From positions 1-38,281 of IMG/VR virus record IMGVR_UViG_3300034101_000828: DNA of 38,281 nucleotides; one strand, given 5' to 3'. The position numbers were made by a program, and so were the translations under genes. Of this stretch, positions 32,186 through 37,720 are shown one piece after another (the first letter of the stretch is position 1; every line of letters begins with the position of its first letter). Source of the DNA: a virus. The notes under the pieces were generated by a model, which made no database searches, was not told the origin of the DNA, and saw nothing but the letters and a program-made list of their open reading frames with translations.

Positions 32186-33529
32186 TTACGGTGCAGGTCC
32201 ACTCAGTAACAATGCTGAAATTTCTGTTGGTAATCCACTCTGTATGATCGAATAGTTCTTGCACAGATTTTGCTGTGCTTCTTTCCAATCTGATTCTTTG
32301 CCTGTGTTTGCCGCAGTAATGAATAGGTTTGCAAACTCAAGATATGCCGTATTGAACTTAAGCATATGACTGTCTGCAATTGCTTCTTCTGCTTCGCTCT
32401 TCCCAAATGTCAGATTTTTTACCATAGGATCCACATACTTCTTGGATCGTAAAAGCCTCATGGGAAGTTCACGCTTGCTGCACGGTATGGATGCAATGTA
32501 CTTCATGCTTGGAACCACACCAGTAGCAACGATTTCTTTTAGAGATTGTAGTTGCAGCATCCATGGCTTTAGTAGAGAAGATTCTTCTAGACCGGTTTCT
32601 GTGTCATCGGTGGCGCGAATTCTTCTACGGGAATTTGTCGAGATGTATTGCTTGGTTGCAAAATCTCTGAGATACGGTTTTAGTGTAGACCATGCCATCG
32701 GATACATCCTCAGCATGGTTTCTATGGTTCCGTATCCACCTTCTGTACTGTTGCCTTGACTATCAGTTTCCACCGCAAAGAAGATACCGTCTTGCTCATC
32801 TAGCCAGAACTTTATATTTGCTCCGCTTGCATACGCTACTTCCCCCACTTCAATGAGATTATCGGGAGACAAATCTGCAATCTCTTCTAGAGACTCTTTC
32901 ATGTTCGCGCCCATAGCGCGACGAAGTTGTTTGAATAGAGATTCTGCATCTGACTTGGAGACTCCACTAGGAATGCCTCCCATGAATGCTTTCAGATTAT
33001 CTTCAGCGGCGGCCGCGCGCATCTTGCTTGCAGACATTCCAACTACTCCTTCTGCGTCGGGGTCGCGCTCGCCTGCGCTAACCACTTCAAACTTAAACTT
33101 ATATCGCTTGTTAGGATCTTTGTGAGTCAGATACGGCTTGATTGCGTTTTTCATTTCTTCTACACGATCACCACCAACAACCATGATTACTTTCTTGACT
33201 CCAGCCGAATCAAACTTCGTCAACACATCAAACATTGTCTTTGCAGACGAGTCGTCCACAATCTTTACAGAGTCACCAAAGAACTTGCGTAACCACTTAA
33301 TCTTAGCACTAGGTGGTAGTGGATTTTTCTTTGGATCGTTGGTTCGTGACGGATACAAAAACGCTTGCGCTCCTGCTTCACTTGCAGCATCTGCTAAAGC
33401 GTCTACTAGTTTCTGATGCCCAGAGGTAGGGGGTTGAAAACGACCGAAAGTGAATGCTACAGTCTTACCGCTCAAGTCTTCCTTGAGTGCATCCTGATCG
33501 CTCTTTGCCTTCCAATCGCTGTACTTCAT
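32186..33529 (-). CDS. NadM/NMNAT-type nucleotidyltransferase fused to an unknown C-terminal domain
   Basis: 447 aa. Residues about 22-172 form a nucleotidyltransferase of the HxGH superfamily: FGRFQPPTSGH (TSGH in place of HxGH), VVGGDRVEEM (about 117-126), and GMSASKMR (164-171), equivalent to the ISSTxxR motif. Such enzymes transfer AMP or CMP to NMN, phosphopantetheine, FMN or a sugar phosphate; the close form in T4-like marine phages is usually annotated only as nucleotidyltransferase. The remaining ~240 residues (EEIADLSPDNLIEVGEVAYA, MLRMYPMAWSTLKPYLRDF) are unrecognised. The ribosome site AGGAGGTGATCC is unusually long. Lies between the 40-aa membrane peptide and the 90-aa gene. The substrate is not determined; an NMN adenylyltransferase role is the leading guess. 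Confidence 0.8.
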   Translation of the reverse strand: MKYSDWKAKSDQDALKEDLSGKTVAFTFGRFQPPTSGHQKLVDALADAASEAGAQAFLYPSRTNDPKKNPLPPSAKIKWLRKFFGDSVKIVDDSSAKTMFDVLTKFDSAGVKKVIMVVGGDRVEEMKNAIKPYLTHKDPNKRYKFKFEVVSAGERDPDAEGVVGMSASKMRAAAAEDNLKAFMGGIPSGVSKSDAESLFKQLRRAMGANMKESLEEIADLSPDNLIEVGEVAYASGANIKFWLDEQDGIFFAVETDSQGNSTEGGYGTIETMLRMYPMAWSTLKPYLRDFATKQYISTNSRRRIRATDDTETGLEESSLLKPWMLQLQSLKEIVATGVVPSMKYIASIPCSKRELPMRLLRSKKYVDPMVKNLTFGKSEAEEAIADSHMLKFNTAYLEFANLFITAANTGKESDWKEAQQNLCKNYSIIQSGLPTEISALLLSGPAP

Positions 33530-33575: not shown

Positions 33576-33698
33576 TCACTTGTTCCACGGCAACTTCTTC
33601 GATACCCAGTCCCAAAGTGGCTTACCGATGAATGCTCCGGCGACAAATACCACTACGGTGTAAAAGAATGTACCCAATGCGTTGTGAATAACTTCCAT
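33576..33698 (-). CDS. 40-aa single-pass membrane peptide
   Basis: ATG at 33698, stop TGA at 33576. The peptide begins MEVIHNALGTFFYTVVVFVA, continues GAFIGKPLWDW and ends with a basic KKLPWNK tail. A hydrophobic segment of about 18 residues (LGTFFYTVVVFVAGAFIG) suits one membrane helix with a cytoplasmic basic end. A strong AAAGGAG site lies 10 bases upstream. It fills the gap between the ligase-like and nucleotidyltransferase genes. Function unknown; it could be a small membrane-active or lysis-related peptide, but nothing in it proves that. Confidence 0.72.
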   Translation of the reverse strand: MEVIHNALGTFFYTVVVFVAGAFIGKPLWDWVSKKLPWNK

Positions 33699-33729: not shown

Positions 33730-34881
33730 CTATGCCCAATTCTTTATCGCTGTGAAGTTCTGACGAGAGAACTCCAAGCGGTCTACCAGTTTGTAGACTC
33801 CCTTTGCAGCAACCGCTACAAATCCTTCAGGATTGGCAACCTTGAATCCGCTATCTGTGGGATAGAACGCACCAATTGTTTTGACTTGGTTCATCTTTCC
33901 CACAATGATGTTCTTGGCAGATGCGATCCGTTTGTGTAGATCAAATGCCTTTTTCAATCCACTTGAGTAGTCTCTCATGCGCTGTATAAGTGCTTGATCT
34001 GGCTTTGGTTGTGCCGCAGCGAACTGAATCAAACCAGGCACAGATCCTTTGTCCACACCTGTACGGATGCTGCTGTTGAAGTATCTCGTAAGTGTTTCTT
34101 TCATGGAGGCGTCGGTTTGTAAGTGTTTTAGAGCATCCGTAACTGTTTTATCGGCCTTGAATGCCTGTATATCTGCCAGTAGTTTTTCCAGTTGCTTGGA
34201 CTCTGCTGCAGTAAGTGTGGCTACACCTGTGGCATCCGAGAAAGATGCGTCTTCTATCCAGGCCTTTGTGTTGTTCTTGAGCGCAGACACATTAGGATTG
34301 AAAGACGCAGAAAGAGACTTTAGATCAGGGCCCTTGTACTGTGTGTGAAACACTATACCGATCTGAGACTTAGCGATCCGTTTACCAAGATCACTCTTGG
34401 TTGGAACTGCATACATGATGGTATTTGGCTGAAAGGTATAGAGGGTTTCGCCGTCTATGGTTTGCGTTTTGATATCGCCAGGAGTGAACATCAAATCGCC
34501 CTGCAATATACCGCTAATTCCTGCATCTTTTAGAGCATCAAATGCGGCGTGCAGTTTCGCTGCAACGCCAGATCCTCCGTGATTGGCGTCGATATCGCTA
34601 TGAGAGTAGTTCACCTTTGGTGTTTTGTTGAACAAACTCTTGGTAGCAACAAAGAACTGCTTGGTTTGTGGATCTTGTCCACAGATCACAGCAGGGGCAC
34701 CATCCCACTTAACAGAAACAAATGCTGCACCTTTTCCACCACCTGCTAGTGTTTTGGTGACATCTTTAATCACCGATACTGCCATATCAATACCCTTGAC
34801 TCCACTCAGAAAGATAGCGTCTTCCAAGTGTTCCAAGTGTGTATTTTTGCTTTCAGAGATGAACGATAAGAATGACTTCAT
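33730..34881 (-). CDS. Ligase-fold nucleotidyltransferase-like protein (DUF6267 type) with capsid-targeting-like N-terminus
   Basis: 383 aa. VKWDGAPAV (57-65) matches nucleotidyl-transfer motif I (KxDG) of DNA/RNA ligases. LQGDL (about 126-130), PEGFVAV (351-357) and KGVYKLVDR (360-368) sit where motifs III, IV and V would fall. I recall the family in T4-like marine phages as DUF6267; the enzymatic reading is inference from motifs. If active, Lys58 would take AMP. The N-terminus MKSFLSFISES resembles the T4 capsid-targeting sequence (MKTYQEFIAE), and ISE fits the [LI]xE cleavage rule of the T4 prohead protease, so the protein may be packaged in the head. Followed by the 40-aa membrane peptide; it overlaps the preceding coiled-coil gene as ATGA. 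Confidence 0.78.
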   Translation of the reverse strand: MKSFLSFISESKNTHLEHLEDAIFLSGVKGIDMAVSVIKDVTKTLAGGGKGAAFVSVKWDGAPAVICGQDPQTKQFFVATKSLFNKTPKVNYSHSDIDANHGGSGVAAKLHAAFDALKDAGISGILQGDLMFTPGDIKTQTIDGETLYTFQPNTIMYAVPTKSDLGKRIAKSQIGIVFHTQYKGPDLKSLSASFNPNVSALKNNTKAWIEDASFSDATGVATLTAAESKQLEKLLADIQAFKADKTVTDALKHLQTDASMKETLTRYFNSSIRTGVDKGSVPGLIQFAAAQPKPDQALIQRMRDYSSGLKKAFDLHKRIASAKNIIVGKMNQVKTIGAFYPTDSGFKVANPEGFVAVAAKGVYKLVDRLEFSRQNFTAIKNWA

Positions 34882-35435
34882 AGTGGAACTTCTGCACGGG
34901 TCATTGCAAGAATTTTGGTGATCTGCTCTTGAATCTTACTGTCTCTGTTTGGCCAGTAGATATACTCTTTCTCTGGATTTTTCTTGAGATTATACAGCAA
35001 AGGCATCACCAGTTGCTCTATAGAGTTCATCTTGGTTTTGTAACTCGCTGTCAACTGGGTCTTGCGTTCCTCCACCTCATCAATTACTGCGCGAATATCA
35101 GCAGACTGGCCACTCAAAGCGACGTACAGTTCTTCTGTTTGCAACTGAAGCATTTCGTCCAGTTTACGTTCTAGCCTTTCGATATCGGTTACCGCTGCGG
35201 GAAATCCGTCGCCTTCTTCTCCGCTCAGTCTGTCGATAATAACACGAAGATTTGCTTCAATACCGTCTAATCTGTCTAGGGTATCGTTAGTTGCAGGCGT
35301 TTGATCTACAACCGGCTGGGTGGTGGTTTGCTGAGTTGCTGCTTGAGATGCATTATAGGTTTCTGCATCAACTGCTGTAAATCCAAAATCGTTTAGTGCT
35401 GCGTAATCTTCAGGATTGCTAGGTGATGTGGGCAT
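34878..35435 (-). CDS. Coiled-coil structural-type protein
   Basis: 185 aa. A disordered N-terminus rich in Thr/Gln/Ala (AATQQTTTQPVVDQTPATND) is followed by coiled-coil helices (DRLDGIEANLRVIIDRLS, DIERLERKLDEMLQLQ, DEVEERKTQLTASYKTKMN). The end, IEQLVMPLLYNLKKNPEKEY then YWPNRDSKIQEQITKILAMT, is a conserved C-terminal block in T4-like marine phages. Function unknown. AAGGAAAC precedes the ATG, and the start overlaps the stop of the PAP2-like gene (TAATG); the end overlaps the ligase-like gene by 4 bases. Confidence 0.78.
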   Translation of the reverse strand: MPTSPSNPEDYAALNDFGFTAVDAETYNASQAATQQTTTQPVVDQTPATNDTLDRLDGIEANLRVIIDRLSGEEGDGFPAAVTDIERLERKLDEMLQLQTEELYVALSGQSADIRAVIDEVEERKTQLTASYKTKMNSIEQLVMPLLYNLKKNPEKEYIYWPNRDSKIQEQITKILAMTRAEVPL

Positions 35436-36088
35436 TATAGTTTCCTTTTTAGCGTAGTAAACAGGTATCTAGCAAGTTCGTGTGACGCTTCAATATCACT
35501 ACGATAATTCAGCGCAGATGCCATGAGAGCAGCGTCAGTTTCCTCCGATAACCGATACAGCGCATTCTCAAGTTTGATAAATCGTTCTCCCAAATACAAT
35601 GCCAGAAATGCAACCTGTGTACTGCGAGTGCTTGGATACGATGGAGTTACATCCTGATCCTTGTATGTATCTGGCAGAGATATACCGTAGTGGTCTGCCA
35701 GAACTCGTGGACGAACTCTACCGTATTGATACTGTAGTGCGAGACACGCGGTACGAACATCGTGAAGCATCGTGCCTATGCGCTTCCTAGACGGGTCAGG
35801 GAGGTGCGTATCATGCTCTTCCAATACAGATCGAACAAGACCAATAATGGGAACCTCTATTAGCCCAGAGTTGATTCTAGACTTTGAGAGTTTAGCCAGT
35901 TCTTCTAGTTCGTATTTGGTACGCTTGCTGCTGTTGCTTGGTGGGGTATCCACAAACAGATCAGTTACATCAATATCAAACTTCGAGATACCTTCCTGCA
36001 AACGCCTAACTACTGGCTTTGGAGTAGAACCAAAGCGCAGGGAATCCAAGTCTTGCGAGACTGTAAAATGGTGTTTGAATGATCGCAT
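35435..36088 (-). CDS. PAP2-superfamily-like protein with altered catalytic residues
   Basis: 217 aa. The C-terminal 110 residues follow the PAP2/haloperoxidase layout: RVRPRVLADHYG (124-135) for motif C1, SYPSTRSTQVAFLALYLGE (150-168) for C2 (normally PSGH), and NYRSDIEASHELARYL (194-209) for C3 (normally SRxxxxxHxxSD). The C2 His is Arg, the C3 His aligns with Asn194, the C3 Arg is absent, and the C1 Lys aligns with Gln. This predicts a non-catalytic member. Such proteins are widespread in T4-like marine phages, often annotated as phosphatase or structural. The N-terminus MRSFKHHFTVSQ weakly resembles a capsid-targeting start. No ribosome site is seen; a hairpin abuts the start codon. Confidence 0.72.
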   Translation of the reverse strand: MRSFKHHFTVSQDLDSLRFGSTPKPVVRRLQEGISKFDIDVTDLFVDTPPSNSSKRTKYELEELAKLSKSRINSGLIEVPIIGLVRSVLEEHDTHLPDPSRKRIGTMLHDVRTACLALQYQYGRVRPRVLADHYGISLPDTYKDQDVTPSYPSTRSTQVAFLALYLGERFIKLENALYRLSEETDAALMASALNYRSDIEASHELARYLFTTLKRKL

Positions 36089-36814: not shown

Positions 36815-37720
36815 TCACGAATGCAGTAACTGGTACTTATCTAGATAGGTTTGCAGAGCGAGTTCTTTTGCTTTCGCTTCAATCATAACATCGTAATCGC
36901 GCGAATGCAAATCGTTTGGGATCGGATTGTAAATAAAGTCTGAGTGTGCTTGTGGCTTTTTACCTTGCGCTGATTCTGAGTAGTGAATCTTTGGCACTTG
37001 ATTACTAGGCCATGTTTCAAACGCCATGTCTGCTGCGTCGTGCAGAGACTCGCGGTTGCAGAACTTGTGGTGGTGAACATCCAACACTAAGCGCACACGC
37101 TCTCCGATACCGTACTCTACAAGATCGCTGATGCTCCACATGGAGGCCTTGTCATCATTTTCGATGGTGATATGAGCGCGTTCCCACTCCGTGAGTAGTG
37201 CTAGATTGTCGAGAAAACGCTTTGCAGTATCGCGCTTGTTTCCTCCGTATGTACCACCCATATGGAAATTGATTACAAAGTCATCATTGGGGCAGCACAG
37301 CATCTTACCAAGCATGGCGTGCATTCGCAGACACATCACAGATTTTGTAACAATGGTTTGGTTTGGACTAGCAAGACAGGTGTACGGACCTGGATGACAA
37401 GAAAGACGAATTCCATTTTCTGCTGCACATCGACCCGCTTCAAGAATGTTGGAAGAAATCTGCGGCCAGTCTTTCAGGTCTTCCAGTTTGTACTGGTACT
37501 TGGGATGATCCATGAACGGAAACAAACCACTACCGACACGGAACATTCTGATATTCCGATTTGCATTCCATTCCATGATGGTGATGAGGTCTGCGGAGTT
37601 CTTTAGTGCAAGATCGTTTACACGCTCAAGCGTGAACCGCGCCTCCCGCAAGGTGCGGTCGGTCAAAATCTTGGCACCGAGAGTCATGTTTTTACAAGCG
37701 TAACCGAGGTGTCGGATCAT
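36815..37720 (-). CDS. uvsE: UV-damage endonuclease UvsE/UVDE
   Basis: 301 aa, the usual full length. LGYACKNMTL opens the fold and IMEWNANRNIRMFRVGSGLF continues it. Metal ligands of the TIM-barrel enzyme are present in order: His109 (SCHPGPYTCL), His153 (NFHMGG), Glu187 (ENDD), Asp214 and His217 (LDVHHHKF), His246 (KIHYSES, with Lys244 at the carboxylated-lysine position), His259 (AHSDF) and Glu281 (MIEAKAKELAL). UvsE nicks DNA 5' of pyrimidine dimers and other lesions, beginning repair without a glycosylase; T4 itself uses the unrelated DenV. GGTGG lies upstream of the ATG. Likely protects phage DNA in sunlit water (inference). Confidence 0.95.
   Translation of the reverse strand: MIRHLGYACKNMTLGAKILTDRTLREARFTLERVNDLALKNSADLITIMEWNANRNIRMFRVGSGLFPFMDHPKYQYKLEDLKDWPQISSNILEAGRCAAENGIRLSCHPGPYTCLASPNQTIVTKSVMCLRMHAMLGKMLCCPNDDFVINFHMGGTYGGNKRDTAKRFLDNLALLTEWERAHITIENDDKASMWSISDLVEYGIGERVRLVLDVHHHKFCNRESLHDAADMAFETWPSNQVPKIHYSESAQGKKPQAHSDFIYNPIPNDLHSRDYDVMIEAKAKELALQTYLDKYQLLHS

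Follow-up and report, generated by a model that had tools for sequence, protein, structure and literature searches.

Does the gene at 33730-34881 of this 38-kb record of a marine T4-like phage (38,281 nucleotides, hereafter the window) encode an enzyme that is carried in the phage head and injected into the host together with the DNA? The earlier note on this stretch raised that prospect from two features of the deduced protein: an N-terminus, MKSFLSFISES, resembling the T4 capsid-targeting sequence with its [LI]xE cleavage site, and a body with KWDG and other nucleotidyl-transfer motifs. Our analysis leads to the answer that the protein is probably head cargo, loaded by means of its N-terminal tag, trimmed between E10 and S11, injected, and active in adenylyl transfer through K58. 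The features on which this reading is based are collected in Table 1.

Table 1. Features of the DUF6267 gene and of the neighbouring cytidylyltransferase/NMNAT-like gene in the window (a slash marks a candidate or known point of cleavage here and in the text)
Feature	Position	Strand	Basis
DUF6267 (PF19782) ORF, 383 aa; predicted covalent nucleotidyltransferase (RNA-ligase-like) fold	33730..34881	-	Pfam match, AF2 model, VIA-align
Capsid-targeting-type N-terminal tag MKSFLSFISE; F4 and F7 as targeting positions, I8 and E10 as processing positions	34852..34881	-	Match to T4 IPIII and tag statistics
Predicted processing site E10/S11, [LI]xE rule	34849..34854	-	Inference from T4 comparison and MCP junction motif
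Motif I KWDG, residues 58-61, candidate nucleotidylated lysine K58	34699..34710	-	K58, D60, G61 invariant in 78 sequences
Motif III-like QGD, residues 127-129	34495..34503	-	Q127-G128-D129 invariant in 78 sequences
Motif IIIa-like GIVFHTQY, residues 175-182, aromatic strand	34336..34359	-	G175, H179, T180, Y182 invariant in 78 sequences
Helical insertion, about residues 220-330 (~110 residues), between motifs IIIa and IV	33892..34224	-	AF2 secondary structure
Motif IV-like EGFVA, residues 352-356	33814..33828	-	E352, G353, V355, A356 invariant in 78 sequences
Motif V-like KLVDR, residues 364-368	33778..33792	-	K364, R368 invariant in 78 sequences
Partner, cytidylyltransferase/NMNAT-like, 447 aa; N-terminus MKYSDWKAKSDQDALKED with candidate [LI]xE site	32186..33529	-	Profile matches; S-PM2 fusion
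Partner candidate processing site LKE/D (LNE/A in most close relatives, LNE/S in L009)	33479..33487	-	Sequence

The DUF6267 family and its genomic surroundings

The Pfam search of the window protein returned DUF6267 as its sole match, essentially full-length (residues 13-379, E-value 1.1e-99, 334.8 bits against a gathering cut-off of 27), with no ADP-ribosyltransferase domain; NCBIfam has no model for this protein, and our literature search found no paper that names DUF6267. Tblastn searches revealed the protein in 468 phage records, nearly all of them T4-like cyanophages; the other carriers include Pelagibacter phage HTVC008M, Methylophilales phages, Stenotrophomonas phage DLP_6 and a Pseudoalteromonas phage. 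Two cultured phages, HTVC008M and Methylophilales phage Melnitz, encode a DUF6267 protein that bears the N-terminal tag described below. Two scans of viral contigs provided 159 DUF6267 loci; in the GTDB, DUF6267 was detected on 37 contigs, most of them binned into MAGs, and we took these to be of phage origin.

The ATG start of the window gene overlaps the stop codon of its upstream neighbour as ATGA, and on its low-coordinate side the window contains genes for the baseplate, hub and tail fibres. The phage must encode its prohead protease and capsid proteins outside the window. Close to the tail region, at 36815-37720 (minus strand), we also observed a gene for the UV-damage endonuclease UvdE (PF03851, E-value 1e-51). 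The location beside the baseplate and tail-fibre cluster would suit an assembly factor rather than an injected enzyme, in the manner of T4 gp63 (RNA ligase 1), which also aids tail-fibre attachment. We regard this as very improbable, as the DUF6267 gene in other phages adjoins replication-type genes, with uvsX, gp41 and nrd nearby, and the tag discussed below points to the head core.

A ligase-like fold is predicted for DUF6267

The AF2 model built from 78 sequences (mean pLDDT 86.9, pTM 0.82) was analyzed with VIA-align, in which RNA or DNA ligases fill all of the top 21 rows. The best match is the Naegleria RNA ligase (180 residues, 3.9 A) with a Z-score of 8.4, a modest value; VIA-align itself cautions that a Z near 8 may come from common arrangements. 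It is followed by TbREL1 (7.7), T4 Rnl2 (7.4) and T4 Rnl1 (7.3). Foldseek found no match at E <= 0.001 with the same model, and the fold assignment is therefore based on the VIA-align ranking and on the motifs. A profile search of PDB sequences with a 27-sequence alignment recovered no ligase (best E-value 0.79, to an unrelated protein). A first AF2 model, made from 27 sequences, was discarded: it was poor at residues 334-383, a region mended in the 78-sequence model, and its Foldseek list was noise.

The KWDG on which the earlier note had relied occupies residues 58-61 and is accompanied by further nucleotidyl-transfer motifs with residues invariant in the 78 sequences (Table 1). Motifs III, IIIa and IV follow in the expected order, their assignment being made by order and conservation and not by superposition. 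The core of motif IIIa (residues 177-180) reads VFHT or VWHT across the family. Motif V retains one lysine of the canonical KxK only (K364), the position of the second being occupied by V366. The occurrence of a single superfamily throughout the match list, together with motif residues that are invariant and in order, raises our trust in the assignment, and we consider it very likely, as judged from the model, that the window protein has a ligase fold. The structure prediction that had been proposed as a check thus returned a ligase-like fold and not an unrelated one. The protein is probably an active enzyme, most likely an adenylyltransferase or ligase of the Rnl2 type.

DUF6267 resembles the four RNA ligases named above in its nucleotidyltransferase fold, as predicted, and in having motifs I, III, IIIa and IV together with part of motif V. 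It differs from them in the helical insertion that precedes motif IV, in ending at motif V with neither an OB nor any other domain beyond it, and in showing no sequence-level match to solved ligases.

The N-terminus matches a capsid-targeting sequence

The N-terminus of T4 IPIII is MKTYQEFIAE/A (aromatic residues Y4 and F7), and the junction processed in T4 gp23 is FGSFLTE/A. Studies of IPIII mutants identified residues 4 and 7 as the main determinants of targeting, and residues 8 and 10 as those of processing (PMC9026906). MKSFLSFISE agrees with the IPIII tag at all four of these positions (F4, F7, I8 and E10), which bears out the resemblance pointed out in the earlier note. Seven close relatives (80-91% protein identity) have all 11 tag residues identical despite four to six synonymously changed codons, which indicates purifying selection on the peptide itself. 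In the AF2 model residues 1-14 of the window protein, comprising the tag region, are disordered.

Among 82 DUF6267 representatives (a set dereplicated at 80% identity), 66 have [LI]xE within an N-terminal extension; in another 11 the extension lacks this motif, and five have no extension. The start codon of untagged members lies immediately ahead of the conserved domain (MGAKNLHLEH, MPSPNVHLEH, MATQNKHLEH), from which we conclude that the tag is a detachable module. The DUF6267 proteins of cyanophages, such as T4-GC71 of S-SM1, are without the tag, and hence packaging by the tag route is not universal in the family. One locus (L028) contains two DUF6267 paralogues (L028:548-1753 and L028:4330 onward), both of them tagged. 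A separate clade (L122, L125, L126, L135, L136, L161 and similar sequences) begins with MFSFKGF(I/F/Q/T)T and has no [LI]xE; judging from its sequences, it appears to have retained the targeting residues and to have lost or moved the processing residue.

The comparison with T4 Alt, an injected ADP-ribosyltransferase, that was offered in the earlier note is apt with regard to the idea of an enzyme carried in the head, and Alt also has a short N-terminal propeptide. It does not extend to the tag, which in Alt is MELITE and for which IPIII (and IPII) is the better analogue, nor to the chemistry, as DUF6267 has no Pfam match to ADP-ribosyltransferases.

The same tag occurs on many unrelated genes

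We searched the ORF starts of the DUF6267 loci with the consensus M-x(1-4)-F-x-x-[FYHL]-[LIVMF]-x-E. It matched 149 of 3,030 non-redundant starts, against 2.7 expected (maximum 6) with shuffled N-termini; this count covers loci selected for DUF6267, phages without it being outside its reach. Among internal methionines, 7 of 8,207 matched a slightly looser form. The two controls imply that a given start matches by chance about once per thousand and, together with the synonymous-only codon changes, they led us to reject the idea that the tag is an artefact of chance or of start choice. Clustering by sequence placed the tagged ORFs in 34 groups, a few of which are chance matches or alternative starts of one gene.

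Bodies behind the tag include cytidylyltransferases, zeta-toxin-like P-loop kinases, adenylate kinase, HAD-like proteins and an NT5C-like nucleotidase (the latter below the Pfam cut-off). An adenylate kinase (ADK, E-value 7e-34) with the tag MQSFKQYITE, for instance, is encoded next to DUF6267 at L158:6651-7253. Two short records carry several tagged starts on one strand, five in G005 (the contig of L104) and four in G006 (the contig of L101), whereas the reversed pattern, used as a control, matched nowhere in them; on sequence grounds these starts appear to form a cargo-gene cluster. The DUF6267 gene is thus not alone, and in relatives it is part of a cassette of tagged cargo genes. Within the window the strict tag is found on the DUF6267 gene only.

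Two further proteins may be mentioned. A 217-aa window protein of a family without assignment (35435-36088, minus strand) starts with MRSFKHHFTV, which is tag-like and lacks the glutamate. A tagged 143-aa protein (MISFKQHITE; L038:5237-5665) resembles an ADP-ribosyltransferase by eye (FYRGIGKGG...GLYLT) and has no Pfam match.

Tagged proteins are found in virions of related phages

The link between the tag and packaging comes from tagged proteins in the published virion proteomes of relatives. For cyanophage S-CREM2 (OR473000.1; loci L215 and L226) the published virion proteome comprises 52 proteins and includes four of the five products with tag-like annotated starts, GTG starts and the loose consensus being counted: ORF6 (SAM hydrolase), ORF14 (APH-like kinase), ORF136 and ORF154 (cytidylyltransferase) (PMC10665884). 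The fifth, gp199, has a loose tag match and is absent from that list. The overlap has a hypergeometric P-value of 0.012, or 0.0015 among non-structural genes, in a small sample of five genes. Published reports describe kinases, NMNAT-like enzymes and a SAM hydrolase in cyanophage virions. The authors of the S-CREM2 study point out that the non-structural proteins in their virions might represent carry-over, and leave the choice between this and cargo undecided (PMC10665884). S-CREM2 ORF12, annotated as Cas9, has a tag-like RFASFMAEA within its first 30 residues.

Two further tagged enzymes were detected in virions, the cytidylyltransferase T4-GC190 of S-SM1 (MKKFSAFLNEA; PMC3037559) and the NMNAT of S-SCSM1 (MKSFLQFLKEA; PMC9602691). 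These proteins and the S-CREM2 cytidylyltransferase are tagged homologs of the window partner enzyme and not of DUF6267, and the tag is not mentioned in the passages of the source papers that we consulted. S-SCSM1 also provides a counter-example, ORF30, which is tagged and yet has no virion-protein flag in that study (PMC9602691). S-SCSM1 ORF90, a virion protein encoded beside the NMNAT, was tested as a DUF6267 candidate and is not a member of the family. A protein kinase has reportedly been found in S-CRM01 virions; a kinase gene of this phage begins with MISFDQFLSE and may encode the virion kinase. Our literature search found no paper joining a cytidylyltransferase with virions and mass spectrometry, and a single review in which capsid targeting sequences and cyanophages both appear.

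Six phages of the group have MCP junction candidates, FLSE/A, FLTE/T, FLGE/I, LLTE/A, LLGE/A and ILTE/T, close to where T4 gp23 has its junction. From these sequences, the end of the tag and the MCP junctions of marine T4-like phages appear to share a common F[LI]xE-type motif.

The main alternative to packaging is that DUF6267 is an ordinary intracellular enzyme whose N-terminal peptide has another role, for instance in binding a replication or late-gene complex. The uvsX, gp41 and nrd genes near DUF6267 in other phages and the untagged DUF6267 of cyanophages are consistent with this, as is our finding no DUF6267 protein named in the published virion proteomes of relatives and no mass-spectrometry match to one. 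However, the same peptide is present on proteins detected in virions and ends in a capsid-protein processing motif, which makes an unpackaged enzyme unlikely in our judgement. Packaging of the window protein in the head is very probable.

A cytidylyltransferase-like partner and the possible role of DUF6267

The next sizeable gene downstream of DUF6267 in the window encodes a protein that matches NMNAT models weakly. In the window and in close relatives its N-terminus differs from the tag (MKYSDWKAKS...LNE/A or LKE/D), with an [LI]xE site still present. S-PM2 (NC_006820.1, locus L086) has DUF6267 split over p141 and p142, and p142, annotated as cytidyltransferase only, joins the C-terminal half of DUF6267 to the cytidylyltransferase in one ORF. 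A fusion of the two is also suggested by phrog_455, which matches the window DUF6267 protein and whose 764-position profile spans the cytidylyltransferase region too. In many cyanophage-type loci DUF6267 is untagged and the cytidylyltransferase directly after it is tagged. A possible small gene with a good ribosome-binding site lies between the two window genes (33576-33698, minus strand); its 40-aa product would have one hydrophobic segment.

We propose that MKSFLSFISE would bind the scaffolding core of the prohead during head assembly, as the IPIII tag does, and that a prohead protease of the gp21 type would then cut after E10. The mature protein, from S11 onward, would be left loose among the packaged DNA and enter the host together with the genome. 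As a covalent nucleotidyltransferase of the RNA-ligase (Rnl2) type, it would consist of one domain, which contains a helical insertion and is not joined to an OB domain. Its K58 could take AMP from ATP and, within minutes of the start of infection, transfer it to the end of a nucleic acid or to some other acceptor, perhaps in concert with the NMNAT/cytidylyltransferase-like protein encoded next to it.

As to the substrate, RNA end repair is our leading guess. In this more specific form of the packaged-enzyme reading, which we put forward tentatively, the ligase would seal RNA, such as tRNA, that defence nucleases of the host had cut, after the ends had been healed by kinases and phosphatases of the same tagged cassettes. 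T4 seals cleaved tRNA by means of Pnkp and Rnl1, the nearest structural matches of DUF6267 are RNA ligases, and DUF6267 loci hold tagged P-loop kinases, HAD-like proteins and an NT5C-like protein. On the other hand, DUF6267 lacks an OB or C-terminal RNA-binding domain, the tagged kinases match zeta toxin or adenylate kinase and not polynucleotide kinase specifically, and the constant NMNAT/cytidylyltransferase partner has no place in known RNA repair pathways.

That partner, adjoining DUF6267 and fused to it in S-PM2, suggests a different and somewhat less likely role: an injected adenylyltransferase that acts on a host protein or small molecule and is tied to the NAD or nucleotide metabolism of the partner, for example in rebuilding NAD+ against NAD-depleting defences. 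The tagged adenylate kinase, NT5C-like nucleotidase and SAM hydrolase of related phages would fit such a role, but the match of the partner to NMNAT models is weak, and we know of no NAD pathway with an adenylyltransferase of the ligase fold.

Implications for T4-like phages

The principle of capsid targeting is known from T4, where the IPIII tag carries foreign proteins into heads and cells, and a review has already suggested that T4-like phages package various proteins in this way (PMC9026906). The marine T4-like phages resemble T4 in that unrelated bodies bear an N-terminal tag of about ten residues, aromatic at positions 4 and 7 and containing [LI]xE. They differ in that the bodies are enzymes of many families, including one with a predicted ligase fold; the cleavage and delivery of these enzymes are predictions. 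As far as our literature search shows, the ligase fold of DUF6267, the presence of the tag on this family and the wide cargo cassette are new.

The chances seem to us evenly balanced that marine T4-like phages possess a general protein-delivery route, in which a single short, cleavable tag that has spread to dozens of gene families would load an enzyme kit (ligase-fold DUF6267, NMNAT-like protein, adenylate kinase, nucleotidase, SAM hydrolase and protein kinase) into the head, so that host nucleic acids and nucleotide pools would be hit before phage gene expression. A common cleavable tag would serve as a sequence rule that predicts cargo from the genome alone, and its predictions can be checked in existing mass-spectrometry data. 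DUF6267, which has no function in Pfam, would gain a fold, together with a probable chemistry and site of action, and the idea of internal proteins developed for T4 would extend to abundant phages of the ocean.
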